Of a DNA stretch of 64,000 bases, positions 37,084-63,469 are shown piece by piece. The DNA is from Bryoerythrophyllum caledonicum. Its lineage: Eukaryota; Streptophyta; Bryopsida; Pottiales; Pottiaceae. Where the stretch lies: contig OZ020523.1 in the NCBI GenBank assembly GCA_963971425.1, positions 12,954,867-13,018,866 on the forward strand. The letters run 5' to 3'. A program made the position numbers and the translations under genes. The notes beneath the pieces were generated by a model, which saw only the letters and a program-made list of their open reading frames with translations, was not told the DNA's origin and did not search any database. Within the stretch, counting starts at the first letter, position 1, and every line of letters starts with the position of its first letter.

Positions 37084-39766
37084 TTTTTATTAACAAAGCT
37101 TCTAACACTATATTAACTAGCTAGAAATCAATTGTTCATAACCATGTAGTTTTCATCAAAGCATCATACATTTGCATAAGAGTTTCTTGCACGGGAATTC
37201 TTGAAATTAAAAGATAATTAACATTTTAGTGTCACTCTTCAGCAACAATGAACAATAACTTATTTTTAATATAAGACTTTACTTGCTCATGAAATACTCA
37301 AAAACTCTTAAAGCTTGCATTATTACAAAATACTAGCTTGATATATAAAATGATATTCAATGAGTATTTAAACAAAAAACAACAAAGATTCACATTACTT
37401 ATTGAAATGCATATAATGTAAAATTTTATTAGTATACAATATTGCTTATAAGAAATAGTTACATTACATAATGAGCTTATTGTTAGTGAAAGCATGTTTC
37501 CAAAGATCCTAGCTATGACATTAAATTAGCGGTAAAATAAAGTTTGATTTAAAATTGTTATATTTTGAATCATGGTACAAAATACCATATTGAAATAGAA
37601 ACTGCTTACATAGATGTTAACATGAAGTGGATTACACAATAATGTTGCAAAAAACAATGTAACTAGTTACAAAAACTGGAAGATCCATATTGTAAAAATT
37701 ATAATAAAGGTTTTAGTATTTTAAATGATGATGAAAGAAAAGCAAGGCAGATCTAGAAAGACATCAATTTTTTTTTAAACTATTTAAGGATATATGAAGT
37801 AAAAAATGTAGAGGACTTCAATGAGTGTCTATTGGAAACCAAGAGACTTACAACCCCTACATACATCTAATTAAAATTAGAAAAAAAACACTTTCACATA
37901 AACTCATTGCTATTTAGACATAATTTTTTGCTCTTTTACATGTCTTTTAATGTAAAACTCCAAATAACTAGTATGCAAGACATGGACCATCATTGAGTGT
38001 AAATTCAAACTTGCGTACATTATTCATAAATCTTTAGAACTATAAATGGATATTCCATGAATTTCATGATAGATTATTTGGAATTTCATCCTAGATTACT
38101 TTAATACAATCAACAAAGCAATGTAGGAGAGACAAAGATTATTATTTACCAATAATTTTGTAATGAAGAATTTATTACTCATGTGTAAATATTGTTGTAT
38201 TTAAAGGATGCCTCTATGGTATTGAATAACTAAACTAATAAAAATATTTTTTAAATATTTTTTATTTTAGTGGACATTATAAAAACTCTATTACTACTTT
38301 CTTTTTAACCCCTCAATGTTTAAAAGTTTTTCAAAAATTCTATTACTATTATTGATACATTGACAAGAATCCATTTAATTCTAAGCATTCAAATCTTATT
38401 CATGATTCCAAGTTATACACTAAAAACATGAATGTCTTAATACATTATGAATTGCAAATCATCATACACTTTTGCAATCACAAAATTCTGACATGGACAT
38501 GAATTTAAAATTTAACATAGCATCATCAATTCAATCTTCTTTTTTTTTTTGCTTAAAATGGGCCAAAACCCTAAATTGACATTCAACTCTAAACCATCCA
38601 AAAGAGGTATACAAATGAGAAATCGATACATTGGAAGCTAAAATAATCAACAATATTAAAGCAAATGCTATTATTGAAGTTTCCAGTTTTCAAATAAGAT
38701 AGATCCATGCAAGCTTCCTTCATTATTATTACTTTTGCAACTAAATTAGGTATTGAAGATCCTTTTTCATTTAGATGATCATATATATTTTGGTGGGTAC
38801 CATGTCTTCATAGCAGAACTAAAGTAGAATTTCAATTCATGGATATCATGTCTTTGCAGCAAAACTAGTGTTTAATTGTTTTCAATAATTACTTTGTAGC
38901 ACTTGCAATAAAATCAAGAGAAGTAAATGATTTAATCTTTAAAGCAACTATCTATAATCCCATTGATCAAAATAGAGGTTGAAACATAATCTATTGATTC
39001 TATATAATTGTATAGGGTGAACAATGTTTTAAATACATTATACTAGAGCTGGAAATAAACGAGTATATTGGTGATGGAACACTTGAAAAGACTCCTCTTT
39101 ACGTTTCATGATAGATGGGAAATATTTGTAAGTCTATTCACTCTACTGAAAATATATGTTAAGTATTAAGTATCCTTTTGAAGTTAAACGAACCACAATA
39201 TTATTGTTGCTTGATTGAAGATTTAGCAATTATTATGCATTATCTTTCCGATACATTTAAGATTATTTTCAAAAAATCTTCATATTTTTTCTATCTTTCA
39301 AAATATAAACGCTAAATAATTTAAAAGAATAATTTAGATAAATAGAATTAATATTATTTAAATTATCCAAATGAAGATCAAAATGTATTGTTGGAACTAT
39401 AAACTTAGTTTTTCAAAAAATAGATCTATTTTTTAAAAATTACTTTTATTATAAAATACTATAAATAAAATATCTTCCATGTTATGCACACTAGTCTATC
39501 TATATACATGTTACATTTATATGGAATAAAATATGGATTGTAATAAGCAGAGACATAAGACAGCATATCAAATGCATGTGCAGAATGCCTTTAATCTATA
39601 TTATTAAAATACATTTTCATCTAGAAAACTCAACTTTTGAATAAAAATGATCCATGTGTACATTTTATCTAGATTTTATAATCAATATCAGATTAACAAA
39701 AAAAAGAAAAATAACTTTTGCAACATATTCATTCCTCACAAGATTATTCTTTGAATTTTTTTATAG
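37084..39766. other. AT-rich DNA between two divergent AT-rich genes
   Basis: This is the shared 5' side of the minus-strand SP-RING gene and the plus-strand CDPK gene, so promoters of both should lie here, as should the missing first CDPK exon. 38945-39115 is a direct relative of 43995-44165. No coding sequence was recognised. Confidence 0.5.
38945..39115 (+). repeat. Direct repeat, left copy flanking the CDPK gene
   Basis: ATTGATCAAAATAGAGGTTG, GAAACATAATCTATTGATT, TTATACTAGAGCTGGAAATA, GAGTATATTGGTGATGGAAC and AAAAGACTCCTCTTTA recur in the same order and orientation at 43995-44165, about 5 kb away. Confidence 0.65.
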
Positions 39767-42529
39767 GTTCAAGCTATTGTCAAAAAATAGATGTTGGAAA
39801 AAAGAATGAATACAAATCACAAAAATCTAAACAAGTTGAACAAGTTGTTAAAGCAATAGTAGAAGCTGATACTAACAAAGGTAGTAAACAGGAAAAAGGA
39901 AATCTAACCGCATGTGTGTTGGGCCATAATACTGAAAACATTAAAGAATTATATAATTTGGGGAAAAAATTAGGGGCTGGAAATTTTGGTACTACATATT
40001 TGTGTATAGAAAAGAGCACCGGCCTTGAATATGCGTGCAAGACAATTCCTAAGAAGAAACTTGTATCTAAAGATGATGTTAGCGATGTCCGTAAAGAGCT
40101 TCAAATCATGCATCATTTATCCGGTAAAAAAATTATTTTAATTTTATCATTTATTCTTGTTACAATATTCTTTCAAAGAGAAATTGTTGATTTTAAAGGA
40201 ATATTTGACATTGGTTAGACTCTTTTTCACATATAAGAGAATTATAAATAAATGCAGAAGTTTAATTATAAGTGCATTTGTAATCCATTTAATCAATATA
40301 TATGGATATTTCTTTTTGATCACCAACCCAAATCATACATGTGGAATTAAAAGTTCAATTTGTAGTAATAAATGTAGTTTTTTGTATTTTTTATAAATTT
40401 AATAGATAATAAGATTGTAAAGTAGATATTGAAATTTATATAATCATCATAACTTTTTTTATTTAATTCATGTAGGTCATCCAAATATTGTGGCAATTAA
40501 AGGTGCATATGAAGATGCATTTGCTGTACATTTTGTAATGGAATTGTGTGCTGGCGGTGAGTTATTTACACGGATCACCGAAAGAGGGCATTATAGTGAA
40601 GCAGCAGCAGCTTCAGCGACTCGAACTATAGTAAGCGTAATAGAAACGTGTCATATTCTTGGTGTCATACATCGTGATTTGAAACCTGAAAACTTTCTTC
40701 TCCTCAATAAGCGCGAAGATTCTCCTCTAAAAGCAACTGACTTTGGACTTTCAACATTTTTCAAACCTGGTGATGTATGTAAAGACGTGGTTGGAAGTGC
40801 ATTTTACGTTGCTCCAGAGGTCTTACGAAGAAAGTATGGTCCGGAATCCGACATATGGAGTGCAGGTGTAATTCTTTATATCTTGTTATCAGGATTTCCT
40901 CCATTTTGGGCAGAAACTGAAGATGGCATATTTGCAGAAGTTTTGAAGGCAAAAATAGATTTTAGCTCAGATCCATGGCCTAAGATATCAAAAGAAGCAA
41001 AAGACTTAATATCGAGAATGTTGAATCCAATTGTAAAGCAACGGCTTTCAGCACGAGAGGTATGATTTTAAATTAAGTCCTGTTGTAGTAGAATGTTATA
41101 ATATTGATAAAATGTCCTAAAATAAATATAGGTAGTTCATATATAGTAAAATATAAAACTTTGGTAGTTCATAACTATTATAAGTTGAAATATTATAGCC
41201 TATAATTAGTCAAGAATTCAAATTTTAAAAAGAATTTGTTCACATAAAAGATGTTTACATATAATATAATCTAATATATTCATAGGTTTTTCAAAATCAT
41301 GATATCTTAAGTTGTAGAAGCTAAATTTTTGTATTGTGATATCATGAGCTATAGAAAATTTAACAAGTTGTATTATGAATTAATTTTATAGATAATATAT
41401 TCAATTTGCTAAATCTTAGTTCAAATAATGCATATTAAAGAAAACTAAATCTTTATTGAATTGAATACTAATAAGATAATAATCAACATTCAAAAAATGT
41501 GCATGACAATATAACCTTATTGAGTATACAAGCTTCTATAAGTATCAAAGCGATGCATGTTTATAATTGTTAATATGTTTGTTTATCATTTAAGGTTCAA
41601 TAATTATTTTAAATGATAAATTCAAGATAATTATCAAGTTTGTATATAATATATAAAATGATTTCTATTATTGCAGGTACTACTTCATCCATGGATAAAA
41701 GAAAAAGGAATAGCATCAGATAAACCAATCGATTCTTCAGTTCAATACCGGCTAAAACGTTTTGCAGCAATGAACAAAATGAAAAAATTAGCGGTTCGAG
41801 TGATAGCACAATCTATGTCCGAGGAAGAAATAGCCGGATTGCACAATATTTTCAAGATAATGGATGAAGATGGAAGTGGCACCATCACCTTTGAAGAGCT
41901 AAAACTTGGTCTTCAAAAGGTTGGTTCGAACATGAAAGAATTGGATGTGTATGATTTGATGGAGGCGGCGGATGTTGATAAGAGTGGTACGATCGATTAT
42001 GGAGAATTTTTGGCAGCTACAATTAACATGAATAAAGTTGAAAGAGAAGAGAATATGCTCGCTGCATTTCGCTACCTTGACAAGGACAATAGTGGGTATA
42101 TTACGGGTGAAGAGTTACAAAATGCAATCACGGAATTTAATATGGGTGACATGAGTGTGGAAGATTTGATGAATGACGTAGATACAGATCATGATGGGCG
42201 GATTGATTATCAAGAATTTGTTGCTATGATGCGTAAGGGCTCAAATGCGGGTGCATTGCCTTCTACCAAAGGATCTAGAATGGAACCAACTTTGGGCTTT
42301 CAAAATACTTTCAAGGTTATAAGATTTTTAAAAAATATTAATAATGCTCAATTTTTTTATAGAAAGTTCATCCAAATCTAATTTTTTAATGTTTGATGAG
42401 GATTCAAACTATGTATAGAATATTATCAATAACATTATATAATTATTACTAACAATATGTTTGAGTATTGTGCAGTTAAATAGTCTTCCAGCATTACCAC
42501 CAATTAAACCATTGCCGCCAAAACGTTGA
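39767..42529 (+). CDS. CPK: Calcium-dependent protein kinase (CDPK/CPK), first exon not found
   Basis: Coding exons 39767-40123, 40476-41059, 41677-42315, 42476-42529. Order: short variable N-terminus, kinase domain with [20 protein letters not shown] lysine, [28 protein letters not shown] in [11 protein letters not shown] and APEV, then the autoinhibitory junction [20 protein letters not shown]. Four EF-hands follow: [49 protein letters not shown] Pro-rich tail [14 protein letters not shown] ends the protein. Calcium binding to the EF-hands releases the junction from the kinase in this family. The first exon here begins after TTTTTTTATAG in phase 1 with (G)GT TCA AGC TAT TGT. An upstream exon ending ATG G would give MGSSYC, a plausible myristoylation/palmitoylation start, but I cannot see that exon. 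All motifs are intact. Third positions are AT-rich, unlike FtsH. Confidence 0.92.
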
Positions 42530-45491: not shown

Positions 45492-45855
45492 TGTCACGGG
45501 ACATGGCGTCAAGGGCCTCTCCGCATCGTAGTTTTAGTGTAGATTAGTTTGTTACTAATCTATAGATTTAGGAATGTACGGAGGCACACCGCATTCATCC
45601 ATGGATGATTTTCATCCACTTAGGATTGTGTGTGTGTGCGTATAGCGCCGCACACGTCCTTGACTTGACGTCTTTGTCAAGTCAAGCTTTGTGAGTGAGT
45701 TAGAAAGAGTGTTGGAAAGTTCTTTGCTTGTTAATTATATCTTTTCATTAGAAATGGCTCCACATTCTTCTTTATTGCTTGCACTTGTTGATTCTTCCTT
45801 GGTGGAGTGCGTGACGCTTGACTACTAGAGTGATTATCTACTTATTCACTTGACA
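45492..45855 (+). repeat. 5' LTR (incomplete) of the gypsy fossil
   Basis: It matches 59090-59440: TGTCACGGGACATGGCGTC, CACACCGCATTCATCCATGG, GTGTGTGTGTGCGTATAG, TTGACGTCTTTG and GGTGGAGTGCGTGACGCTTG occur in order in both. The first ~110 bp of the 3' LTR has no counterpart here. Confidence 0.85.
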
Positions 45856-46050
45856 AAGACCCTCCATTCCTAGTCTTAGATCTCTTGTTATTGAGCTAGA
45901 AAATGTGAGAAAAAATTGTGGGTACTTAGATTGATGTTGTAGCACAAGTTTAGACAATTCTTACACAACAAACGACACTCAAATTTGACAAATTTTGAAG
46001 AAGTTGCAAGGATTGCATGGTGTGAAGCAAGAAGGTTGTTGTTGGCTTGT

Positions 46051-46140: not shown

Positions 46141-47549
46141 TTCATCCACAACATAATTTCATCCACTAAATGCAGATTTCATCCACTATGGATGATACTA
46201 AAATTTGGACAAAAGTGACATAACTTTGCATTAATATCTCCCAAAATACCTTTTTAAAATTCCAACTTCGGATTTGAGCTCTCCATGGGAGTTTCTAACT
46301 TTCTATTTTGAGGGAGTGAAAAATTTTAGTGATTTTTTTTTCCAAAACCACTTTCTTGTGGATTGTTAAAAATAAAGTTTAGAGTCTAAACTTTGGAGGT
46401 AGTTTGTGAGGGCATTTTTACTCCGTTCAGAGTAAAATTGGCATCTAGAGCTAGGGTATTCCGCCATTTGTTCAATTTTAGTATTAAATTTTTAAATTGG
46501 CATATCGGCACGTTTGTCATTCAATGTGTTATTTGCATTTGGAGGACTTGTGTTTTTAAACACTGCAAAGGTATTAGCTCAATTGCAGTAGTTTCATAAG
46601 CAACACACAGATCATATAAGAAAAAAAAGTATGGGACCTTACTGCATGTTGCCCGTTTGTACCTTTATCCTTTGGATAATACCCGTAGATAGATCTCGGG
46701 GTGGTTTTTGTTTATGGTGAGTACCCGAAGTCGGTATTATCGCTCCCCCTCACCAGACCCTCCAGACTCCAGAGAGTGTTTTTACCACAGACTTTGGGCC
46801 ATGGTCGGATATTGACAAGGCTTTTGAGCATGTTTCAACATTGGATACCAACCATAGGCTTTGGGTATGGAGTGTGGCTACGTTTGACGACATGGAAGAC
46901 GATCTCCGTCGTGTCGTGCGAGATAGTTTTCTCGGGACGGGATGGGGGCATCTCCTTGCCCAATTGGCCGCTCCGATTCCAAACTTGGATAAAAGTAAAG
47001 CGCTAGCGGACACCGTCGTTTAACAATTGGTATGCATTCAAGCTCTTGCCCCAACATTTAGAGTTGGAGGCCTCTCAGACATACGAGAGCTGGACCATGC
47101 AACACGAGGCAAAATTGCGTCTCTGTTGAGGACTACTGGCGCCAATGTGTGGAGTTGGTGACCGTGCTCAAGGAGAGTGCGGTTGCCCAATGTGGGAGTT
47201 TAAAACTCCCACTTGGTTGCCCCTACAAAAAAAACTAGTTAAAATAGGGTTTTTGGTATTAATTAACTAGAAAAGTCGTTAGTGTTGTATGGAATTAGAT
47301 TAGATAGTGGATAGCGAAAATAGGGAAATGCTTAAGTAGTTAATTAGGTTTATAGAAGTGATAAAACTGGGTCTTAAAATCACTAGTTTATGTCTCGGAA
47401 AACAATTTCAAAAAGTCCCGGAAGAGATCCCGAGACGTAAGTCTAAAATCACCACTTAATCTAAATTAACTAGTTAAGTTTAGGAGGTAGTTAGAAGTAG
47501 TTGAGTTCTTCTAGATGCTAATTCTTGTTGAAAAAATTAGAGGTAGTGG

Positions 47550-47740
47550 TAGAAAAGAAAAGAAAAAAAGAAAAGAAAAAGAATAGAAAAGAAAAAAATA
47601 AACAAAAAAATAAAAATAAAAATAAAAATACATACCTGGGTATCAACCCGAGTATGAACTAGCGCGGGTACCAACCCGGGTATGGGCTGATACCCGGATA
47701 CCCGGGTATCACCCGAGCAGCAGCCCGGGTAGCTCCAGCC
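47550..47740. repeat. A-rich run followed by CCCGGGTA-rich block
   Basis: 47550-47632 is AAAAGAAAA/AAAAATAAA low-complexity DNA. 47633-47735 has seven or more overlapping CCCGGGTA or TACCCGGG phrases, strongly self-complementary. The C/T-rich stretch after it gives long spurious minus-strand frames. Confidence 0.75.
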
Positions 47741-48705
47741 GCCCTCAAAACCCCTCTCCCAAAATTCTCCTCTGCCGAATTTTTCTTCTCTCCAGAACTC
47801 TTCTTCTCCCCCTTCCAAAACTCTTCTCTTTCTCCCTCCTTCTCTAAAATCTTTCCCCTCCCCCTCAAATTTTCTCCTCTATTTCCCTCTCTAGTTCTCC
47901 CCCTCTCTCTATTTGGTTTTTTTTTGGAGTTGGAGTTTGAAGAAGTAGTCAAAGAAGTGAAAAGAAGGAGATGCAACAAGGGTTTTGGAAGAGGAGGTGG
48001 TACAAGCTAGGATTTGGAGGAAGAGGTGCGCGCAAGCTAGGGTTTGGTGGTGGTGGAGATTTCTAGGGTTTGTTGGAGGTGGAGGAGATTAGTGGCCAAG
48101 GCGAGAAGATAAAAGTGACAAAGAAAAGAGATTGTGGGTGCAACGAGTAGTGGGAAAACAATGGTGACTCTTGCCCATGTTGGGTTTCTCTTGTTTGTGC
48201 AAATTTCTTGTGTGTAAGTCTTTTCCTCTTTTTTCTACCGGGGTGATTCCCCGGTAACATCCTCCCCGGCCTAGAAAAAAAGTCCCCCGTGGGATTCTAT
48301 CTGGACCTTATTGTGACCTAATATACATGTGAAGTCTACATTAGTGTCATATTAATTGTTGTCTATTGTCCTAGCCTTGTGGCAAGTCATACTTTTAACT
48401 TTTCTCCATCTTCCTATCATTTTTAGGTCTTGCCCACATTTCCTATATTTTTTCCGGTCTAGCCGGTCAACCGGGAAAACATCTTTCTAAGTCCTTATCT
48501 CCAAAGTCCTCTTCTTGTTACGATTTTATGTGACCTTGTGTTGTTAGTATGTTTTCAGATATGTGAGACACCTATATCCACATATTCTAGCAAGGTGTTC
48601 CGGAGTTGTTTACCGATTGACCGGTAGACTTGTGTTTCCGGACCGGACCGGAGTTTGTGACAAGCTAATAGGGAGATTGGTGGAAGTACATGCATTTTAA
48701 GGATT

Positions 48706-49737
48706 TTGTCCACCCCGGACAACATGGCTCTACCGGTGTCGATAACTCTTTCAAAGATTGATCCAAACAAGTGGGAGGGGACTGCAAAAGGCATACAGTT
48801 AGAGGAAGACCTCATCCGGATGGGGTGTCGGGGACTTTACGAGAAGCCGTGGGTATTCCAGAGGGAACATGCAATGTTGGAATTGCACCCTTCCGGGAAT
48901 TCCCGAAAAGCCTACCAGACAAATCACCGGTCTTGGACCGTGGATGTATGGCGCGAAGTGTACTCTCTTCGTCAAGAGAGTGAGTGGTCAGTCGCGGTCA
49001 ACGGGGAGCTGTTAGAGGAACACGTATTGCAACTTTACAACTCATCAGAATGCTACCGGAGCGATCACTTCACGAATCATCAGTTGAGAAGGGCAGTTGA
49101 GTTTCTAAATCCAATCTTCCATCCCAACCATTGTGAAAGGGTCACGGCCCGGTTGGCCACTACCTACATCGAAGCATTTTTCGAAGAATCCTCTCCGGAT
49201 TGGGGATCCTTGTTGGTGGAGGCAATTTTGCCTCAAATTCGGGTGGTTCGACAAGGTGGAGGCTCCAAGACTTTCTTGACCCCCTATCTCATGCATTTAT
49301 ATGAGCACCACCGTTGTTTAGACCCGGATGAGCAGAGGATGTGGAGAGATGCGATGGCTCCTTTAGATCATCCTCTACGGGGCCCTCCTCAACAACCGGA
49401 GACCCGGTTGATGTTACCGGCAACTCTTTGGGATCTTTGGCAACCGGAGTCGCGGTCGATGCTACCTGCAAGACCCCGGGAAGCCTCTTCGTCTCAAGCA
49501 ATTCCAAGGAAGGAGAGGACCTCCCGATCTTACTGGGAGACACCATTTCAACCACTCGGGGCATCCAAGCAACTCACACTCGTGGAGAACATATCCAAGT
49601 TCTCCTGGGAGGTAACCTGGGAGATCCAAGAGATGAAGATGGAAGTAAAGGATGCAAAGAGTTTCAAAAGGGCTCTCCGGAGGATCTTTGAAGAAGAGGA
49701 CAATCCATGCCATTGTTGGAGGTGTCGCAGGCAATGA
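48706..49737 (+). mobile_element. Gag-like frame of the gypsy fossil
   Basis: A 343-codon frame starting MSTPDNMALPVSITLSKIDP, with AVEFLNPIFHPNHCERVTAR and LTPYLMHLYEHHRCLDPDEQ, sits immediately upstream of the protease, where gag is expected. I see no zinc knuckle and no clear similarity to a known capsid, so the assignment rests on position. Confidence 0.45.
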
Positions 49738-49989
49738 CGACTCCACCCACCACGGATGATTTGGTGGCAATGCCGGCTAGATTGGCGGCGGAGGCTATTT
49801 CTACGTTTGAGGCCAATACCACTTTTACACCTATGAAACAGTCCTTTGGGGATCGGTCACTGATCTTTGGAGTCGCTTATTTATCTGGCATTGCGGCCCG
49901 GTCACCACGGGAGCGACGTAGTGTGCCTCCAGGGATGGTACGTTTAGTGAATGACAACAGAGTCATAGTGGTTGGCGATACGGACGGCA

Positions 49990-50330
49990 ACCCCACTTGA
50001 CCTACTCCCCTACGTGTTATGTTTGACTCCGGAGCTCATTTAGTGATGATGGGCAAGCAACTAGCCTAGGATTTGGGTCTAGGTGCTTCGAACCTTGAGC
50101 CTTGCCCATTTACAATTGTTACATTGGTAGGGGGCACAAAGAAGGCCATGGAATACACCCGACATCCGTTGCAATTGATGTTCGGTGTGGAATCCGGTCC
50201 ATTGTTCTTCCACGTATCTCTCCAGTGTGCCGTGGCTAGTGCCATTAACTACAATATTTAAGTAGGCCAGCAGACACTTTATCTACTTGGTTTTGAGGTG
50301 GATAACTGGACGGAGGAGGCTTAGATTATG
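49990..50330 (+). mobile_element. Retropepsin region of the gypsy fossil
   Basis: It contains VMFDSGAHLVMMGKQLA, the DSGA active-site motif of retroviral-type aspartic proteases, followed by a flap-like region and downstream hydrophobic strands. The region is broken. Confidence 0.65.
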
Positions 50331-50689
50331 TCTAGGTGGTCTGCCGGTGATGGCATAATGAAGCTCATTCCGGTTGTCTTCGCAGCTAACGCGGTGACTA
50401 GCACGACAACCGCTATGTTCAAATAAAGTGCCTCAGCATCAGATTTGCCATGTAGTTCTACGCTTTTGGAGGAGACATATGCTTTTATGTTGATGGTGGC
50501 GGAATCACGTGAGCACATACCAGTGGAGATCCATGCACGTCATTGCAAGGATCTACTTCCTCCATGAGGGACTCAGCTGAAGTTCACTCGTCGCAGCCGA
50601 GAGGTTGTAGATGCTCTGGATGCTCTACATCTCTCACTAGACTCTTCCACTGTGTTGTTGGCTCGCATTATTCAATGGTGACCATCGGA

Positions 50690-51690
50690 GGAGTTTATTA
50701 CCCTCATAAAGCTATTTGCGGGTATCGGTACGAGGCTCGCGTCTGTGTTAGAGGCCGGACTCAAGGTACGGCAATATATCCATGTGGATAGTGACTTTGC
50801 AACCAACCGTGCCGCTCACCATCACATTCAACGTCTTTTGGAGTTGAATCGGGAGCAGTTACCGTCTTCTGCTATTCAAGGGTGTTTTGGCAAGTTGCCA
50901 CATGATGTGATATTGATCAGTGAAGATGATTTACGCCGGCTAGGTCACATGGACTTGGTGATTGCCAGATGGCCTTGCCAAGGCTATTCACAAGCGGGAA
51001 GTGGACGCGGCTTAGATGATCCACGGTCGAGTTTCTTTGCGGATTTGCTCAAGCTCATCCAGTGGTGGGTTATCCACCAATCAACGTCACCGGGGTGCAT
51101 TTTTGAGATGTACTTCCATTGGATGACATACGGACGAAGGTGCGTAAAGATGGGGCATACATCCATCGCCTTCTTGCTTTCCTTACGTTTGTAGATGCCG
51201 CGACATTGAGCTCTTACGCCCATTGGCCACGTTGGATTTGGACTAACATTGCATCATCGGCAACGCTCACCTCTACACTTGCTCAAGTGCAATGGCCTAT
51301 ACACCGAGAGGTCGATGACATCTTGGACGGCCACCGTGTATCCACGGCGATTACCAAGGATGATAAGCCACCATTGGCCGTGGTGAATTGCGTTGGTTTC
51401 ACTCAGAGGACATTTCCCACGTTGATGTGCTACCCGGGGTCTTTTACCTTTAGGACACACGGTCCGGGCATGGTTAAGGATTCTACTTTCCAAACTTATA
51501 AGAAGCCTTCTGCCGATGAGAGCGAGTGGGCGATGGGCTTTTTAACAGGCACTACCAACGCACTAGATCTCTCCGAGGGCCAACGTCATTATCTGTTGAG
51601 TCAAGCTATTGACCTCAATACTCTAGTTTGGATTTGTGGCCTCTATTTTGCTGTTCAGTGCCGTTCATGTGACCATCTACGTGTGTTGGT
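50690..51690 (+). mobile_element. C5 cytosine DNA methyltransferase region inside the gypsy fossil
   Basis: Motifs in order: KLFAGIGTRLASVLEAGLKV (motif I, cofactor binding), VDSDFATNRAA (motif II region), DDLRRLGHMDLVIARWPCQG with PCQ (motif IV, catalytic Cys), DDPRSSFFADLLKLIQWW (motif V-like), SSYAHWPRWIWTNIA, and WAMGFLTGTT with QRHYLLSQAIDLNTLVW (motifs IX-X, GF and the closing helix). It lies between protease and reverse transcriptase in the element's reading direction. Retrotransposons that captured such enzymes have been reported from dinoflagellates and charophyte algae, with the suggestion that they methylate their own copies. This copy is a fossil with a few breaks. Confidence 0.8.
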
Positions 51691-52049
51691 GGCAGACTGG
51701 AACTTTGATGGTCAGGAGACAACGGTGCCACATCTCACAGAGATCAAAGAAGTAGAGCTGTTTTTTTTGTTTGAAGAGGCACGCAACTGAGGAGCTTTGT
51801 GTTCAACATGTCTTTGTAGCCTTGGCGGAGGGCTTTGGCCGAGAGGATATTTTTTCCTGGTTTTATCATCACGACACGGGATTTTCTGTAGATCCTTTGA
51901 GCGAGGAGTCTAGAAGCACGAATGTCCTCTTTGCTACTAAGTAGCAATCATTGGCCGTGCCAAAATGCAATGAGTCTTCTATGGTGGAGAAGGTAAACAT
52001 GGAGTTTGATGATTGGCCTTTGGATTTGGGGCCACATCTTACCGATGCC

Positions 52050-53480
52050 AAGGTACGGAAGGTACTAGCGTTTATACGTTCGTATTGTAGTTGTTTTGCT
52101 TTTAGCCTCCATGATTTGGAGGGCTATAGAGGCAAATCGATACACATCCATTTGGAGGACAACCACCGGATCTTCTGACAACCATACAAGCTCAGTCTTT
52201 CACAGAAAGTTGGGATTCAGACTTGTTGTCAAGAATTGTTGGCTGCCAGCTTGATTAAGCTCTCTAACGGCGAGTATGATTGTGCCACGGTTATGCCATC
52301 AAAGAAGGATATCTTTAGCAATTGGACGGAGAAGTGGATGTATAGAGATTATAGGCCGGTCAATCGTAAGACAAAGTCATACTGGTATCCGATGCTGGAT
52401 GTCCACGCCGGACTCCGAAGGAGTTGTTCGATGCGATAGGCCACGCTAGAATATTTAGAACTTTAGATTTGCAATCTGGTTATCACTAGTTACCATTGAT
52501 GGTGGATGACCGGGTGAAGATTGCATTCTAAAGAGTTGATCAGGATGATAGAGATCAATTCTATTATTGGAAGTTCCTCTCATTTGGCCTCAAGAACGCA
52601 CCCGCTGAGTTTCTGAGTGTGATGGACTGGATGCTGACCGATTTACCATTTGCCCGATGCTACAATGATGATGTTGTCATTTTTAGTAGCAGCCTATAAG
52701 ACCATGTGGGGCATCTTTAGGCAATGTTCGAGACGTTGCAGTAGTGGAGATTGTGTTTGCTCCATGGCAAGTGCAAGTTCTTCCACGACCGGTTGCCATA
52801 TTTGGGACATATGATTGTTCCAGGGGTCTTCGTATGCAACAGACCAAGGTGGATGTGTTGCAGAAGATTCTTGCCCCAACCGACGTATCATGGCTTCAAG
52901 CTTTTCTTGGCTTGGCAAATTACTATTGACGATTTGCCAAGAACTTCAGCTTGATTGTTAAGCCATTGACTATTCTCACGGAAAAGGATCAACCATGGAC
53001 TTGAGGACATAATGAGCAGCATGCGTTTGCTACTTTGAAACTAAAGCTCGGTTCAACGCCTATGTTGCAGCGTCCAGATGCTATACGATCCTTTCACTTG
53101 CACACAGACTTGAGTGGTGTAGGATTGGACGTTGTGTTGACTCAGAAGGATGATGAGGGACGGGTCTACGTTGTGGCATTTGCTTCTAGAGGCAACAACA
53201 ACGAGGAGTCCAACTATTTGTCTTGTGAGAGGGAGGTCTTGGCCGTGGTTAAGGCCATAGCCCGTTTTAGGCCCTATTTGTATGGGCAACATTTTATGTC
53301 GGTGACCGACCATCAGCCTTTGAAGTGGCTAATGGAGTCTAACAAACTAATTGGCAAGCTCGCCAAGTGGGCTTTGTTGCTTTGTATAATGCATGGTTGT
53401 TTTGTACATCGGGCCGGCATCACAAACTTGGATGCGAATGGTCTATCTCGCAATTCAAGTCCTTCGGAGGAGGATTTGAC
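52050..53480 (+). mobile_element. Reverse transcriptase and RNase H region of the gypsy fossil
   Basis: Patches include YRDYRPVNRKTKSYWYPM, SFGLKNAPAEF, a YNDDVVIF active-site block (YxDD), FLGLANYY, then LHTDLSGVGLDVVLTQKDDE, EESNYLSCEREVLAVVKAI and TDHQPLKWL, the usual Ty3/gypsy RT-RNase H series. The region is broken in many places. Confidence 0.85.
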
Positions 53481-53789
53481 TGATGTCGGATAGCATGGGA
53501 ACTATGACAAGGAGTCAATCCTGGGGTAGCATGCAGCGGCTTACCTCACGTTGATGTCTGGCTCCGCATCAACGTTGTCTGATTTGGCAACGGATGAGGA
53601 ATCGGATAAGGCCCAAGTTGTTAGCAATGTGTGGGAAGACGGTCCAGTCTTGCACAAGCTACAACATGGGACACTTTCCTCACTTCTTTTTGCTATGGAG
53701 TGTGATAGAGTTGGGCACCGAATAACAAAGTTCCGTTGGAAGACTGCCTTCTATTTCGGGTGTAGCCACATGGGACTAGGCGTATAGTT

Positions 53790-54480
53790 CCAAGGCGAGA
53801 TCATAGGGCTTTGTTGGTACGGCAAGTTTACAAAGACCTAGGACATTTTGGTGTGCGGCAGACTCATTCAATGTTGCACAACTAGTACTGGTGGACCCGC
53901 ATATATCAGTAGGTTGCCACGTATGTTTCTCGGTGTGAAATATGTGATCGGGTTAGATCCAACTTCAACACCTTATCACCTCATTTGCAGCCTTTTTCCA
54001 TTATGAGGCTAGGACACCGATGGTCTTTGAACTTTGCTGGTCCATTTGCGTAATTCCACGCGGAGCTAGGTGCGTCTTGGTGATGGTGGAGCATTTCATC
54101 AAGTGGATTGAGCTTGTGGCCCTTCCGCAAAACTCTTTAGAGTTGGCGGCCATGGCATTCCTCGACCAAGTGTTGGCTCGCTTTGGAGCCCTATCTGAGG
54201 TTTTGATCAACTAGCAGCGTGAGTTCCTTGGGGCTTTTGAAGCTTTGTGTACCAAGGCATTGATTGATCATCGTATGACTTCTCGCTATCACTCGGAAGC
54301 AGACGGTTTGGCGGAGCATATGGTTCAGACCGTGAAGCGAGGCCTACAAAAGTATGGATTATTTCAAGGTGGCCACCGTGATTGGAATTTGATGATACCG
54401 TGGATTGTCATAGGCTACCGGTTTAGCTCCCAGGATTCACTTGTTGCTTTCAGATCGTATGAATCGTTGTAGGAGCGGGA
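53790..54480 (+). mobile_element. Integrase region of the gypsy fossil
   Basis: It includes YKDLGHFGVRQTHSMLHN (zinc-binding HHCC start), CEICDRVRSN and a catalytic-core stretch with an LVMVEHFIKWIELVALP-type motif and YHSEADGLAEHMVQTVKRGL. The order after RNase H fits Ty3/gypsy. The region is broken. Confidence 0.75.
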
Positions 54481-55002
54481 GCCAATTTTATCAAGTTCCG
54501 AGTGGCAAAAATTGGCTCCGGTTGTGGATTTGCACGATCCAAAGATGTGAGTCCACTGTGTACACGATTGAGCGTAGTTCTTCAAGCGAGCTATGCCCAT
54601 GGCCATGGAGATTTTATCCATTTCTCAAATTGTGACACCTTACGGTACACTTGTATTTGTAGCGGTGCCTACCGACCTCAATTACAACATTTTTCCAGGG
54701 GATATCATATTTTTCTGCAGCGTGAGGCGCTTACAACGTTGGACGTCAAGGCATGGCGCACTATTCTTTGTGTGAAGGACGTGTTGTCCAGTGGTATCTT
54801 GTTGCTAGAAGGCAAGGATGGCCGGGATTGTCGAGAGCACTTTGAGAATTGTACTCCCTTTCATTTATCCATTGATGGCTCAGTTCATCTCAAGTTGGTT
54901 GTTATCCCAGACGGCCTTCCGTGTTTCGTGTGTGGGGAGAAGAAGGGCGCGGTTACTATATGTTAGAGATTAGAGTTGCTTGTTGTTATTATGATATCGT
55001 AA

Positions 55003-55402
55003 GGGAAAAGCTCATATGTGAGCAAAGAAGAATAGAAGAAAAAGAAGAATAGAAGAAGAAGAGGAAGGAGAAGAAGAAGAAAATAATAGAAGAAGAAGAA
55101 GAAGAAGAAGAAGAAGAAGAAGAAGAAGAATAATAGAAGAAGAAGAATAGAAGATGCAAAAATAAACACTTAAGGCAAAGATGGGAGGAAGTACTAGAAA
55201 CTTCTAAAATCCTAGCAAAAATAGTTCCACGGTCTTAGCTCCCAGAAATTATTTTTTTAAGAAAAAAAAAGTAAATTTTTTAAAAAATAAATCAAATATT
55301 CGGAGAATATGCGAATATATCACAAATATTTTTATAATATTTGAATATTCTTTGCTATCTACGGCTGAATTTTCTACTCACTACTCACATACAAGACTCC
55401 TT
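55003..55402. mobile_element. 400-bp Mutator-like MITE inside the copia 5' LTR
   Basis: TGATATCGTAA (11 bp) occurs at 54992-55002 and again at 55403-55413. The 3' copia LTR has this site once, uninterrupted, at the matching position. The insert begins GGGAAAAGCTCATATGTGAG and ends CTACTCACATACAAGACTCC, giving imperfect inverted ends with shared TATGTGAG. A 9-11-bp target duplication is typical of Mutator-like elements. A GAA-rich microsatellite fills 55021-55145. Confidence 0.6.
55021..55158 (+). repeat. GAA-type microsatellite
   Basis: Runs of AGAAGA, with an uninterrupted stretch near 55095-55130, are interspersed with AATAGA. It lies inside the MITE at 55003-55402. Confidence 0.9.
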
Positions 55403-58264
55403 TGATATCGTAAATAGTTGAGGCAGATTTAGAAGGGAAAGTAAAGGGGAGAAAATAGAGAGACTCGTGCAACAAAGCCTTTGGAGATTGTGCATTCGGA
55501 TGTGTGTGGCCCTATGAGGACCACTTCCATAGGTGGTGCAAGGTATTTTGTGACCTTCATTGATGACTTTTCGAGGAGAGTGTAGGTGTACATTTTGAAG
55601 ACAAAGGGGGAATGCCTTCAGAAGTTCAAGGAGTTCAAGGCCCTTGCGGAGAAGCAATCGGAGCACAAGATGAATGTGTTTCAGTCGAACAATGGTGGGA
55701 AGTTCATATCCAAAGGCTTTCGAAGTTTTTTTAAGAAGCATGGCATTGACATGCACACATCAACACCTCACATGTCAAAGAAAAATGGAGTTGCGGAACG
55801 TGCAAATCGTACCATAGTAGAAATGGCGAGGAGGATGATCCATGCACAATGCCTAAAGCTTGAATTTCTGGCGGAAGCGGTGGCCAATGCGGTCTACAAC
55901 GGCAATCGATGTTCAACGAGGGCTCTTGTCACCATCACACTCCAAGAAGCTTGCAGTGGCCGCAAGCCATGCATTGTGCATATGCGTGTGTTTGGATGCA
56001 TTGCATATGCGATGGTGCCGGATACAAACAAGGATAAGCTTAATGCAAAAGGCACAAAGTGCTTGTTTCTTGGCTATTGTGAGGGCACTAAGGCATATCG
56101 GCTCATGTGCATTGAGACGAAGAAGATCATTAAGAGTCGTGATGTAGTATTTATTGAAGATACTACTAGTATCGGTGATGTTTTGGAGATGATTCCAAGT
56201 GGTAGAAGCGAGACCCCTACTTTGGTGGACAAATCTTCCAAACCACCACCCTTGAATGATTGCGATGGCAATACCATGAAAGAAGAGAGATTGGTTGCCA
56301 AAGAAGGAGGTGTAGCATCTTCATCAACACCTTCACCAAGCAATGAGGACTTCGGCAACTTACAAGAGCCACAATATCCAAGAAGAGAGTGTTGCCCACC
56401 CGGGGAATGGTAGAAGAGCCATATTTTGCCTCATTGAGATAGAGCGTGCCAATGTAGTGTCATTGGAGGATCCTTTAAAGGTGTGTGAGGCTATGCAGTC
56501 GGAAGATGCAAGCAAATGGGAGTTGGCCATACAAGAGGAGTACGACTCGCTCATGGCAAATGGCACGTGGGAGTTGGCTCTTCTTCCAAAGGATCGCAAG
56601 AGCGTTGAATGCAAGTGGGTGTTTTGTACAAAAAAGATGCTTTGAGTTGAGTGGTGCACTACAACGCAAGATTAGTTGCCAAGTGGTACTCTCAAGTTGC
56701 AGGAGTGAACTTTCTTGAGACGTTTGCTCTCGTTGCCAAGTTCATAACCATTTGGTGCATTCTTGCACTTGGGGCGGCCTTGGACTTGGAGATCCACCAA
56801 ATGGATGTGAAGACCATATTCTTAAATGGTGAGTTGTAGGAGGACATTTACATGGACCAACCCCAAGGTTTTGAACAAGAAGACTTTGATCATCTTGTGT
56901 GCAAGCTCAAGAAGCCATTGTATGGACTCAAGCAATTACCAAGAGCATGGTACCAACGCATCGATGTTTTCTTCATCAAGGAAGGTTTTACAAAGAGCCA
57001 AGTGGACCATTCCTTGTACATCAAGAAAACGGGTGAGTACTTGTTGATAGTGCTCATCTATGTGGATAACTTGATCATCTTGGCTAGCCTTTTGGCTAAG
57101 TTAACGTGGTTCAAAGGTAAGCTCAACACGGAATTTGAGATGAGCAATCTTAGTGAGTTAAATTATTGTCTTGGTGTAGAATTTGTAAGGGACCGCAAGG
57201 CACACACCATCACCATGAGCCAAATGAAGTATGATGAAGAGGTGCTGAAGCGCTTCAACATGGAGGAGTACAAGCCCATTGGTACCTCTCTTGATGTGAA
57301 TATTAATTATTGAAGCTTTCAGACGAAGAGTTTCAAGCCATTTAAGGTGAGATGTCATACAAGAGTGGAGTTGGATCATTGATGTATGCCATGGTGGGCA
57401 TACGGCTTGACCTTGCTTTTGCGGTGAGCATGGTGAGCCAATTCATCTCTAGGGCTGATCCGACACATTGGAGTGCCGTGAAGCGCATCATGCGGTACTT
57501 ACAAGATACTATAGACCACAAATTGTGCCCTGGTGGTAAGGACATTGCTTTGAGGGGGTATTGCAATGCGGATTGGGTCGGAGATGCGAACAAGCGTCGT
57601 TCGACAATAAAGTATGTGTTTTTTGTTGGAGTTGGTGCCATCTCGTGGAATTGCAAAAGGCAACCAACCATTTCCTTGTCCACAACGGATGCGAAGTACA
57701 TGAAAACTAGCAAAAGTACGAAGGAGGTCATTTGGCTTTGAAAGCTCTTAGCGGATGTAGGGTTTGTTCAAGAAGAAACAATGACCATCATGTGCGACAA
57801 CCAAGGGTGTATATCTCTTGCAAAGAATCCCACACACCACTTACGCACGAAGTACATTGATGTACAGGATCACTTTATTTGCAAGAAATTGGAGAGCGGC
57901 GAGAATAGCTTGAAATATTATCCAATGAAAGACATACTGGCGGATGTGTTGACAAAAACACTTACAAAAGAGCGACATCCAGAGTTGTCTACATAGACGG
58001 ACAGGGGCTCAAAGACAATGGACGGACGGACAGTTGAACAGACGGACATAACAGACAACATCCTTACTAGACAGATGCCGATAATATTTCAAAGAATATT
58101 CCTCAAATCTATAGGAATATTTCCAGATATTCTAGAATATATTGGAATATTTTCTATTGGATGGACAACAGCCTCTATCGGACGGACGTCGGAACAACCA
58201 TGGCGGCATCAAAGGTTAGCAAAGGCGATGGGATTGCGAGAAGGTAACTCTCGCAAAGTGAGAG

Positions 58265-58528
58265 TGCTAGAGATTAGAGTTACTCGTTGTTATCATGATA
58301 TTGTAAATAGTTGAGGTAGATTTAGAAGGGAAAGTAAAGGGGAGAAAATGGAGAGATGATACAAACTTAAAGTAGTCCCATATGTATTGGCAAAGGTTGT
58401 TACCAATTGGTACTATAAGTAAAGGCCTTCAAAAGAAGGTCATATCTCATTCCAAACATTGTTTGTAATACCTTATGTGTTTCATTTGCTTGTATAATCA
58501 TTTCTCTTCTTCTTTTGAACCTCAATAC
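58265..58528 (+). repeat. 3' LTR of the copia fossil
   Basis: It starts TGCTAGAGATTAGAGTT and runs through CTTTTGAACCTCAATACTATG, where gypsy sequence resumes. The right boundary is approximate within about ten bases. Confidence 0.65.
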
Positions 58529-58537
58529 TATGTTGTT

Positions 58538-58660
58538 TTGTGACAAAATGGCTTGTTTGACGCCGCTCTTTTCTACTCTACTGTCCGGGGATTGGACTTG
58601 CCCTCGTTGTCAAAGGTCTTCAAGCCACATTTCACCCAATGAAACCGCTTGAATTCTTCG
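58538..58660 (+). mobile_element. Remaining C-terminal finger segment of the gypsy fossil
   Basis: It contains ACLTPLFSTLLSGDWTCPRC, the second half of a PHD-type zinc finger (the W-x-C-P-x-C ending). The first Cys pair (CFVCGEKKGA, about 54919-54950) lies on the other side of the copia insertion. Confidence 0.55.
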
Positions 58661-58977
58661 TGAACTTGTCAGTATGTGGTGCTTTTCTATCCAATTGGAG
58701 TTCTTGGTTTCAATTTAGACATATGCGACGTGAAGATTGACCAAGGGATTGGCAACAAATTTTCCTAAGGCAAATAAAGATGGGACTGACATTGCATCCG
58801 GCCTACCTTCTCTTTGTTACTTCTCCATATGCTTATTGATTTGACGACGGGCGACATCTTTGACTAAATGCATAGAGTTATTGCAGCGACATCAATGTGA
58901 CATTTAGTCTTTTTAGTGTTATTTTGTCCTAGCTAGATAGAGGGTTTCTTTATCTGCTAGGGGGGGGCACTTGAAGG

Positions 58978-59440
58978 TGTACTACATATACTTGTTTTAG
59001 TATATGTTTTTTGTTTATTTGATGTTGGTTAGGACTCTCGATCTGTTGTGGTTATTAATATTTCTTTACACGTCAGCTGTCACGGGACGTGGCGCCGAGG
59101 GCCTCTCTGAGTCGTAGTTTTAGCGTATATTAGTTTGTCACTAATCTACAGGTTTAGGGACGTACGGCGGCACACCGCATTCATCTCTGGATGATTTCAT
59201 CCACTTTGAGTTGTGTGTGTGTGCGTATAATGCCGTTCACATCTTTATCTTGACGTCTTTGCCAAGTTAAGCTTTGTGCGTGAGTTAGAAAGGATGTTGA
59301 AGAGTGCTTTGCTTATAAGTGATGTGTTTTCACTAGTAAAGATTGCACATTCTTCTTTACCGCTTGCACTCGTTGATTCTTCTTTGGTGGAGTGCGTGAC
59401 GCTTGACTGCTAGAGTGATTCTCTTCTTATTCCTTGAGGG
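58978..59440 (+). repeat. 3' LTR of the gypsy fossil
   Basis: It follows a purine-rich tract (AGGGGGGGGCACTTGAAGG). It begins TGTACTACATATACTTG, contains all landmarks of 45492-45855, and is followed at 59441 by a new TGTACTACGTATACTTG, i.e. the start of a second, truncated LTR copy. Confidence 0.75.
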
Positions 59441-59520
59441 TGTACTACGTATACTTGTTTCAGTGTATGTTTTTGTTAATTTGATGTTGGTTAGAACTCT
59501 TGATCTGTTGTAGTTATCCC
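59441..59520 (+). repeat. Truncated second LTR start
   Basis: TGTACTACGTATACTTGTTT, TTGATGTTGGTTAGAACTCT and GATCTGTTGTAGTTAT repeat the first ~75 bp of the LTR at 58978, immediately after its end. A tandem or recombinant LTR is the likely cause. Confidence 0.65.
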
Positions 59521-60673
59521 TCTTTCTATACACAACAAAAATCACTATAGTTTGCAAAAGCTCAAATCAATTTTTGTGGCAATGGTCTTATTAAAATCAT
59601 CATACCCTCAACTACGCCCATAGTAAAGAATGTTTTGGCCCTAGTTTCCTAAATTGACTACGATAGTCTGTCTTCACCCCCCCTAGAGACCATGTTTGGA
59701 CCTTTCCGGCTCTAAAGGATTAAATATAGGTGGATTTTTTCTAAATTTTATTTCTCACTTATGAAATCACATGTCTTGCTCATGTCATAAAAATTACAGA
59801 TTTTTGGTGAAAGTTAATCATTATTGTGATTTTCCAAAGAAAAGTTGAAGAAAATTCATATCAGATACTAAGTATGTTAAAAAATTCTGGAAATTTCACC
59901 AAATTTGTACATTATAGTGCCAAAACTTGGAGTGTAGATGAAGCTTTTGTATTCAGCTCAAATTAGAAAATTGGTTAACCATGGATATAGGCCCAAAGTT
60001 CATATTGCGATAACTTATTCAATTTTATGTATTTTTCATATTTTTATATTGGGATAGAAACCAACTTCATAAGCTTTGTTTCATTAGTTGGACTCAAATT
60101 CAGACTTACAGCAAAAGCTAGAAGTTTCTAAAGTACAGACATTGAGATCCATGTCACAAAGATTTTCTTCTCTAGATAATACATGACTACCTCTACGAGG
60201 CAAGTTTCATCATCATCTATTACTTACACATTTGATAAACTATCCAAAAAAAATTGGATGAAAAAATATCATTCACATTGGTTATCATCCTTGAAGAGTC
60301 ATCCGAGAAGCCAATTTCTGGCTCCTCCGACGATATAGGTTTAGAGGTTTAAGTTGGTTATAGCAAACACTGAGTTATCGCAATAGTGAGTGATCACAAC
60401 ATTCTCCAGAAGGACAATTATGTAAAGATTGAGAATGGATGGTGCAATGGAAACCATTGCCCATTCTTTACCGTGTGACACTATGAAGATTGAGGAATGG
60501 GCCGGAGAGAAGAACATCAATCCTACAAGCCCATTCTTCACCTTGATCCTTCATTGCCTAAGTGGACCATGAGGCATTGGGAGAATTTACAAGGGTCACA
60601 TATTATGCAAAAAAATTCTATACAACGGGTACATTTTGTCATGACCCCACTTCACAAAAATCACTGTAGTTCG
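59521..60673. other. Repeat-derived DNA between gypsy and the TTAA element
   Basis: Most of it (59735-60320) is the second copy of the 600-bp repeat at 16830-17450. 60410-60540 has ATTGAGAATGG and GAAGATTGAGGAATGG phrases that recur near 61700-61815. No gene is supported. Confidence 0.5.
59735..60320 (+). repeat. ~600-bp dispersed repeat, copy of 16830-17450
   Basis: Landmarks TTTCACCAAATTTGTACATT, ATAGTGCCAAAAC, TAACTTATTCAATTTTATGT and GGCAAGTTTCATCATCATCT occur in the same order and orientation as in the first copy. Confidence 0.6.
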
Positions 60674-61891: not shown

Positions 61892-63469
61892 TCAGAAACG
61901 GATTGGATCAGGATCGGTCGCCGGCGACGGAGACGCTGCGGAGAACACGACGCGCTTGTCGCGCCCCATGAGCCAGTTCAACGAGAATCGTCGCGAGAAC
62001 GAGCCCTGCTTCGCACTCTGCTGCTCCTCCGTCAACGCTGCGTCGCCCTGATGATCCCAGACGTTGCTGTTCTTATTAAGCTGCAGCTCCTTCACGGCCT
62101 GCTCCAGCCCGACGGACGTCTCCGACAACGACCGTCGGTACCAGCTGACGCTCACCTTGCCTTCGGGCAGGCGGCTCAGCGACGAAGACCGCTGCTTGAA
62201 CTCGCTCGTCGTCTCCTTCTCGACGGAGGAGGACGCGTTAGAGAACGACTTCGTCCGCGCGGTCTGCACTTCCCAGCTCTCGTCATCATCGTCGTCGTCG
62301 TGGTCGTCGTCTTCGCCGCGCTCGATGTCGATGTCGATCCAGCGATCGCCGGGGTGAGGAGAGTACTCGAGAAACGCTGCGGGCGAGAATGCGACGTCGG
62401 AGCCGATCGGCGTGAGAAGCTCCCGGACGCGCGAGAGCGTGTGCGGCGTGTAGAGCCCGCGGCTGGCCCAGAAGAGCTCGTCGTTGGCAGGCGTGGTGCC
62501 GGCGCTCGCGAGCTCGGGGATGGAGTCCGAGAGCGCGCTGCGGTGCGTCGGCTTTGAGGAAGCCCAGTCCTGAGGTCTTCCGGGGTACGGTGTGGGCGCG
62601 ATTCGGAGCTCCCAGCTGGACGGGTCGACGATGTACTCGTAGCTGCCCATGGAGTACGAGCGGCCGCCTATGCGCGTGAGCTTGCGTGAGTCCGCGACGT
62701 TCTTGACCTTGCCGGAGACTTTTCCGAGCTCCACCTTGAGCACTCGGTGCGCGCCGTGCTCGTCCATGACGCGGATCGTGGGCGCGAACGGGCTCGGGGT
62801 GTCGGCGGGCACCTCGTCGTGGACCTCCTGGATCTCGTTCTCCGAGTCGTGATCCTCCGTCTCCTCCTCCACGTCGCAGATGCGGAAGCTGTTCTGGTAG
62901 CTCCCGTGGATGGAGCCGTGCAGGCTGCGGCGCGAGTCGCGCACGAGCTGCTCCTCCAGGGAGAGGCGCGAGCTGCTCGTGGACGCGCCGGCGTGCGGGT
63001 CCGGGAGCAGGCTGCGGCGGCAGAGCGGGCACGTCGAGTTCGACAGCAGCCATGTGTCGATGCACTCCAGGTGGAACGCGTGCTTGCATTTGGGCAGCAG
63101 CCGCAACCGGTCGTCGTCCCCGAACTCCGTCAGACACACCGCGCAGTCCGCGCTGTCCTTCAAGCCGCGGATGGAGCCGTAGGAGAACACCGGCAGCGTG
63201 TCGATGAACACCTGCTCCACGCCCGCATCGTGCAGGTGGAACAGGTGCTGCAGCTGCCCGTGGAGGGCGCTCACCAGCGGGCTGTGGTGCCGCGGCGCTT
63301 GCTGCCGCCTCCGCCCCAGACACCGCGCCAGCAGGTGCAAAAACCCCGAGAGTATGAACACCACGCTCAGAATCACCACTATCACCACCACGGACGGATT
63401 GATGTGCGCTCCTCGCTCCCCCCGCACACTCACACCCTGCGGCGGCGTCGCCGACATCGTCCTCGCCAA
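61892..63469 (-). CDS. ATL-type RING-H2 finger protein (putative membrane E3 ubiquitin ligase)
   Basis: Intronless, 525 residues on the minus strand, as most ATL genes are. Order: short Gly/Pro-rich N-terminus, one membrane span (about 25-47, VVVIVVILSVVFILSGFLHL), basic LGRRRQQAPRHH, the TLPVFSYGSIRGLKDSADC segment (GLD-type motif), then RING-H2 at 109-150: CAVC, LPKCKHAFH, CIDTWLLSNSTCPLCR, with the conserved Trp and the Pro before the last Cys pair. A long tail has YSMGSYEYIVD, an acidic DDDHDDDDDDE run and Ser-rich stretches, resembling the ATL13/46/47-type branch. Family role: RING-dependent ubiquitin ligase at a membrane, often in stress or defence signalling. Substrates are unknown. 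The long ORFs opposite it (61847-62557, 62747-63472, 62286-63515) are shadows of its GC-rich coding sequence. Confidence 0.92.
   Translation of the reverse strand: MARTMSATPPQGVSVRGERGAHINPSVVVIVVILSVVFILSGFLHLLARCLGRRRQQAPRHHSPLVSALHGQLQHLFHLHDAGVEQVFIDTLPVFSYGSIRGLKDSADCAVCLTEFGDDDRLRLLPKCKHAFHLECIDTWLLSNSTCPLCRRSLLPDPHAGASTSSSRLSLEEQLVRDSRRSLHGSIHGSYQNSFRICDVEEETEDHDSENEIQEVHDEVPADTPSPFAPTIRVMDEHGAHRVLKVELGKVSGKVKNVADSRKLTRIGGRSYSMGSYEYIVDPSSWELRIAPTPYPGRPQDWASSKPTHRSALSDSIPELASAGTTPANDELFWASRGLYTPHTLSRVRELLTPIGSDVAFSPAAFLEYSPHPGDRWIDIDIERGEDDDHDDDDDDESWEVQTARTKSFSNASSSVEKETTSEFKQRSSSLSRLPEGKVSVSWYRRSLSETSVGLEQAVKELQLNKNSNVWDHQGDAALTEEQQSAKQGSFSRRFSLNWLMGRDKRVVFSAASPSPATDPDPIRF

Follow-up and report, generated by a model that had tools for sequence, protein, structure and literature searches.

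Our analysis concerns a 64,000-nucleotide stretch of the genome of the moss Bryoerythrophyllum caledonicum (the window; contig OZ020523.1, positions 12,954,867 to 13,018,866), in which a decayed retrotransposon carries a cytosine-5 DNA methyltransferase domain (DNMT) between its retropepsin (PR) and its reverse transcriptase (RT). The copy is a dead member of a numerous moss family with a gypsy-type pol that was amplified recently and encodes a DNMT3-type enzyme. Taken as a whole, the data probably describe an element that would express its polymerase by readthrough of a stop codon and methylate its own cDNA. The enzyme was apparently taken up by the element long ago.

The identity of the domain is seen in its motifs and in profile searches. 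The open reading frame (ORF) at 50682-51194 matches the Pfam C5 methylase family PF00145 above the family cut-off (E 3.1e-8). ORF 51107-51790, which alone had no match in Pfam or PDB searches, continues the domain in a different frame. A query that joins the two pieces, with X standing for the frame break, finds 20 proteins; the top match has 73% identity across the entire query (E 8.7e-155). Motif I (LFAGIG, 50712-50729) is followed by motif IV (PCQ, inside 50970-50984), by the frame break, which falls at motif VI (about 51105-51112; ENV in relatives), by motif VIII (AHWPRWIWTN, 51218-51247), and by AMGFLTG (51530-51550) with a closing helix (51593-51631) as motifs IX-X. These positions bear out the canonical order of motifs I, IV and IX-X that a preliminary description of this DNA had claimed, with motif VI at the frame break, and its placement of the domain between protease and RT is confirmed by the retropepsin FDSGA (50022) on one side and the YNDD box of RT (52661) on the other. 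In a translation of the three forward frames the retropepsin, linker and methyltransferase share a frame from 49704 as far as the break; downstream lie pieces of RT, RNase H and integrase (IN).

A profile of the domain compared with PDB matched DNMT3C/3B at 4e-19, 4onj (labelled DNA methyltransferase only) at 8e-10 and HaeIII at 1.5e-9, and more weakly HhaI (4e-9), DRM2 (5.8e-9) and DNMT2 (1.8e-5). In a fold comparison of the predicted structure, modelled from a deeper alignment that superseded a first model with a pLDDT of 54.3, DNMT3A/3B rank first. Among the enzymes compared, all of them from PDB, those of DNMT3 type are nearest to the domain and DRM2, DNMT2 and the bacterial enzymes more distant, which makes it a C5 methyltransferase of the DNMT3 type within this set. 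A DRM-type enzyme is rejected, as the motif order is canonical and the profile puts DNMT3 far above DRM2. PWWP and ADD domains are parts of DNMT3; the moss enzyme differs from DNMT3A and DNMT3B, whose catalytic domains it resembles, in having neither and in being embedded in a retroelement polyprotein.

The coding plan of the element is seen in an open relative, L005 (CADCWO010000201.1; 9285 bases), found in a scan of prokaryote genome contigs and filed under a cyanobacterial metagenome-assembled genome (MAG). Over 5272 columns L005 shows 83.9% identity to window 49704-54959, with which it is colinear; we take it for an assembly circle, since the 127 bases at its start recur unchanged at its end. 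From the Gag ATG it has 1346 open codons, a single in-frame UAG and then 1047 open codons; CAAUCA follows the UAG in the window and L005 alike. Before the UAG, Pfam recognises DNA_methylase (6.8e-12), so that the C5 methylase match holds for the window copy and L005, with the aspartyl protease below cut-off; after it come RVT_1, RNase H, an integrase zinc finger, rve and a PHD finger (4.3e-10), which matches the PHDs of CHD4, PHF12 and UHRF1 among others in PDB (best 2.4e-14). Plant retroelement sequence is filed in a second bacterial MAG as well (P0004, Obscuribacterales); both cases are likely contamination, which gives methyltransferases false bacterial names.

The genome assembly of the moss (437,360,962 bases, 894 contigs) was searched with the first methyltransferase piece, yielding 1754 candidate places. 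All 150 that were scored match at E 5.1e-63 or better, so that the element, thought at first to mark a rare lineage, is not rare in this genome; nine of them lie in frames that stay open for exactly 1353 codons, the match itself being free of stops. We examined 20 stretches of 9.9 kb (every fifth of the 96 best among 149 other matches) and eight 3.5-kb loci including the window. L007 is the same as L014, L012 as L015, and L022 is the L020 insertion on another contig, leaving 24 distinct copies; L020 and L022 have identical 300-base flanks on two small contigs and are perhaps a duplicated haplotype in the assembly. The methyltransferase precedes RT in all 24 and follows a protease in 23 (L030 being without a PR match), and a PHD finger match occurs in 18 long stretches out of 20, all but those of L015 and L018. 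The order PR, RT, RNase H, DDE integrase, seen by Pfam in L005 and by tblastn in the 9.9-kb copies (the L015 stretch is without IN), supports the earlier view that a Ty3/gypsy-type pol hosts the domain. These copies were located by their DNMT, and sister copies lacking it lie outside the sample.

Across 25 loci, with the duplicate L022 counted, the methyltransferase domain is open without gaps in 13, carries stops in three and gaps in nine. Pooled dN/dS of the open copies against L005 is 0.09 for DNMT (13 copies), 0.05 for PR, 0.05 for RT, 0.02 for RNase H, 0.03 for IN and 0.13 for PHD. The choice of open copies biases dN/dS low, equally for every domain, and the low value for DNMT thus indicates constraint of the same order as on the element's own enzymes. 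The methyltransferase domain evolved under purifying selection in the moss family, a large one in this genome that has been active recently and evolves under selection.

The terminal repeats are of an unusual kind. In 11 of the 12 loci with the 5' end fetched (one a duplicate), the element has A-B-A at its 3' end and B only at its 5' end; L016 is without B2 and A2. Ordinary long terminal repeats (LTRs) are rejected on this arrangement, and the first assignment to Ty3/gypsy therefore stands for the type of pol but not for the repeats, which are split and DIRS-like. A perfect 4-bp target duplication flanks all 11 loci (10 distinct) with both ends readable; nine of these elements start with TG and two with TA (L017 and L028, whose starts were placed two bases ahead of the BLAST start), and all 11 end in CA. 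Membership in DIRS/PAT, a group with a tyrosine recombinase and no target duplication, fails on the rve integrase and the 4-bp duplications. The internal A1-B2 junction has two extra bases (GC in ten of 11, AC in one), as expected if the junction copies joined ends of unintegrated DNA. These copies are young, since their B1 and B2 are 97.3-100% identical. The arrangement of split direct repeats, A-coding-B-A-B, is that described for DIRS-type elements (de Mendoza et al., 2018, PMC5890265).

Relatives of the domain extend beyond this moss. A second protein search, in which 7992 candidates were scored, gave 37 proteins, including unnamed close relatives, Marchantia polymorpha (P0040, P0042, P0043, P0044, P0047), Calypogeia fissa (P0038) and a weak Closterium match; complete domains are about 30 to 92% identical to the queries. 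In a tree the window groups with L005 (96/89), and a further group (98/99) unites Marchantia and Calypogeia with P0037 and P0039, two unnamed rows; the outgroup is one truncated DNMT3B on a long branch, and the tree says nothing on a single capture of all retroelement methyltransferases. The position between protease and RT, constant in the moss copies apart from the PR-less L030, does not extend to the whole of the wider family: P0050, P0053 and P0056 have the domain between RNase H and integrase, and group with P0052 and P0055, where it lies before the integrase (99/93). At least 33 of 57 proteins extend at least 50 residues beyond the domain and stop before RT (P0011, P0012, P0030 and P0041 excluded), ends that may be those of gene models or contigs; in P0045 and P0048 the frame of the domain continues into RT. 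Scans of IMG/VR yielded four weakly matching loci (27-37% identity over part of the domain) and no RT relative.

The most fitting description of the element is that of a relative, in a moss, of KnitGypsy-Dnmt3 from the charophyte Klebsormidium nitens that has recoding and PHD features in addition, a comparison made by the paper's description; the matches of the two protein searches contain no K. nitens sequence under its name. According to the text of that paper (PMC5890265), the two share a Dnmt3 without DRM rearrangement in a Gypsy-type Pol ORF, purifying selection on the domain, and DIRS-structured repeats with Gypsy domains; the host is a charophyte, not a moss, and neither UAG-CARYYA nor a PHD finger is mentioned in that text, where the term stop codon comes up once, on a different matter. 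SymbioDIRS-Dnmt3 of Symbiodinium likewise has a DNMT3-type domain in Pol and A-coding-B-A-B repeats, with a domain order within Pol that differs between types, as in the wider family of the moss element; it differs in its tyrosine recombinase, where the moss element has a DDE integrase, and its capture is held by the authors to be independent of that in K. nitens (PMC5890265). Some DNMT3 members in retrotransposons ('LTR Copia and DIRS') are reported from streptophytes and dinoflagellates in the text of PMC12344493. Among the titles and abstract openings listed for the literature found, no DNMT-bearing retrotransposon is reported from a moss or liverwort. Chromoviruses carry a chromodomain at the integrase C-terminus; the moss element shares with them a chromatin-reader module in this place, but here the module is a PHD finger.

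These features suggest a model for the replication of the element. Most ribosomes would end at the UAG to give Gag-PR-DNMT, and a few would read UAG-CAAUCA to give Gag-PR-DNMT-RT-RNaseH-IN-PHD; as the recoding stop lies after the methyltransferase and not after Gag, the enzyme would be made in excess of RT, at the level of Gag, and packaged into the particle. There it would most likely methylate cytosines of the element's cDNA, CpG above all, before or during integration. The split repeats suggest a circle-like junction of the cDNA (A joined to B), followed by insertion by the integrase with a 4-bp duplication, and the PHD finger on the integrase would recognise a histone tail at the target site. 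Any new copy would thus arrive already bearing the host's mark of a silent transposon; such premarked cDNA may escape treatment as foreign, and may limit damage to the host. The natural enzyme is very probably active, judging by its preserved motifs. Its action on the element's own cDNA falls a little short of an even chance, and a targeting role for the PHD finger is evenly balanced. We advance only tentatively the fullest version of the proposal: a bryophyte-wide gypsy-type lineage with DIRS-like repeats would make DNMT3 at Gag stoichiometry through UAG readthrough, methylate its own cDNA in the particle and, once a circle-like junction has formed, integrate by means of a DDE integrase guided by the PHD finger, so that the element writes and reads host marks on itself.

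Several observations weigh against the proposal. Among the open copies themselves, dN/dS of DNMT is 0.22, twice that of RT and PR (0.10), yet like that of IN (0.23). CpG observed/expected is 0.76 for the element in the window and 0.80 in L005, against 0.56-0.67 in the neighbouring inserts; it is not low, and does not suggest unusually heavy germ-line CpG methylation. The 9-nt UAG-CARYYA site comes only seventh of 182 windows in conservation (L044 included). Finally, the gypsy-borne enzyme of K. nitens gave no methylation in yeast, a result from which its authors drew no firm conclusion because human DNMT3B failed there too (PMC5890265).

A different target for the enzyme is conceivable, if unlikely: it would act in trans on the host genome, at competing elements or target sites, with the family tamed or hidden at the level of chromatin. 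A packaged enzyme and one imported with the integration complex are indistinguishable in sequence, the PHD finger adjoins the integrase, and host-wide effects are raised as a possibility in the text of PMC5890265; in all 24 distinct copies, however, the methyltransferase lies within the polyprotein expected to form the particle. We find it improbable that the domain no longer methylates and is kept for nucleic acid binding or particle assembly. The yeast result would fit such a loss, but the Glu-Asn of motif VI and the Arg-x-Arg of motif VIII occur in 37 of 37 complete domains and the motif IV Cys in 36, and PCQ and ENV are kept in all 13 open moss copies (the motif I pattern in 10, motif VIII in 10 and AMGF in 12).

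Returning to the proposed readthrough, we regard this decoding of the UAG as highly probable on the basis of frame and context. Of the 24 distinct copies, 23 have the UAG, which is AAG in L011, and all 24 have CARYYA, in L010 as CAATTA. Among 20 further diverged copies, the 12 that align across the stop site all read TAGCAATCA; seven of the others are without alignment there, and L044 aligned spuriously over 28 bases. UAG followed by CARYYA is the type I readthrough motif of tobamoviruses as described in the text of PMC3542737, from which the moss candidate differs in lying between the protease-methyltransferase and RT of a retroelement; in a Verticillium copia element gag and pol are described as separated by a stop that has no CARYYA after it (PMC3441728). 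The region around the UAG is highly conserved throughout the aligned moss copies, and because the flanks are conserved too, conservation of the site within the family, taken alone, says little. Stronger points for the predicted readthrough are the common frame, open before and after the stop, and the absence of any Met ahead of residue 117. They also leave little probability to a plain stop with RT-IN translated by reinitiation or from an RNA of its own: the downstream frame is that of the upstream ORF, runs for 1047 codons and has its first Met no earlier than that residue, close to the RT motif, and in the 20 stretches, own sites set aside, CARYYA follows only about one stop triplet in 760. 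A predicted RNA stem in L005 (3486-3600, z -2.39) starts about 8 nt past the UAG. Insertion of a host methyltransferase fragment by chance into the window copy only has a negligible probability and is rejected for the family, given the same place in 24 of 24 distinct copies, the purifying selection and the liverwort relatives, although copies found by their DNMT are not proof for every copy.

The window copy lies on the forward strand. Its 5' terminal repeat B1 (45492-45859; begins TGTCACGGGAC) matches L005 7057-7426 by blastn and is 84.5% identical to B2 over 362 columns; the flanking duplication has one mismatch in four (GAAA against AAAA). The N-terminal part of gag (46709-47188) has 79.6% nucleotide identity to L005 8604-9074, and some 1.3 kb of gag are replaced by a foreign insert (47189-49703), a gap in the L005 alignment. 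There follow the retropepsin and linker in a single frame with seven stops (49704-50684), the methyltransferase with approximate ends, no stops and one frameshift at motif VI (50685-51661), a tail with small indels (51662-51941) and the UAG CAAUCA (51942-51950). RT, RNase H (PF17917, E 2.5e-31) and integrase (51951-54915), with 18 stops and several indels, are colinear with L005. The PHD finger, intact in L005 (PF00628), is split into 54916-54959 and 58548-58660 (end approximate; aligned to L005 from 6531) by a foreign Ty1/copia-like insertion (54960-58547), again a gap in that alignment, whose ORFs at 55586-57996 were judged by eye to be copia-like integrase and RT. Repeats A1 (58969-59075, ends approximate), B2 (59078-59437) and A2 (59433-59537) complete the 3' end (...ACAACA).

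These lesions confirm the early impression of an old, broken fossil, with nine indels relative to L005 and a methyltransferase domain that is dead despite its lack of stops, because of the frameshift. Stops number 25 in 1322 codons outside the domain and tail against none in 416 inside (50685-51941; Fisher p 0.0015), or 19 of 101 against 0 of 24 for CAA/CAG/CGA/TGG codons only (p 0.02), a stop-free stretch that was noticed post hoc. C-to-T and G-to-A changes make up 460 of 825 substitutions against L005 and affect 22.7% of CG sites and 14.3% of other C sites, an excess that fits decaying methylcytosine. The insert in gag holds most of an intact 358-codon ORF (48661-49737), which is foreign to L005 and is rejected as the gag of the element; it has no Pfam family above cut-off and no PDB match better than E 0.68, and next to another DNMT copy, in antisense orientation, there is a 28% relative (L031 7427-8029).

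Among neighbouring host genes, a chloroplast FtsH gene lies at 6888-9505. The best 120 of 7988 matches to its exon 6888-8180 begin with an unnamed protein (84%), Ceratodon purpureus (86%) and Physcomitrium patens (81%); lower among the matches listed stand the liverwort Calypogeia, at 73%, and Selaginella, with 77% across 89% of the query. This ranking marks the host as a moss. A calcium-dependent protein kinase with EF hands (39715-42378) and a RING-H2 protein on the minus strand (61895-63481) were recognised by eye.

DNA methylation is ordinarily directed at transposons; in this case a land-plant family of transposons, large and active until recently, itself bears such an enzyme under purifying selection. 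The UAG would fix the proportion of enzyme produced. Split repeats together with a DDE integrase unite two styles of replication that are usually separate. Some mosses can be cultured and gene-targeted, so that the question of why an element encodes the enzyme of its silencer becomes testable.
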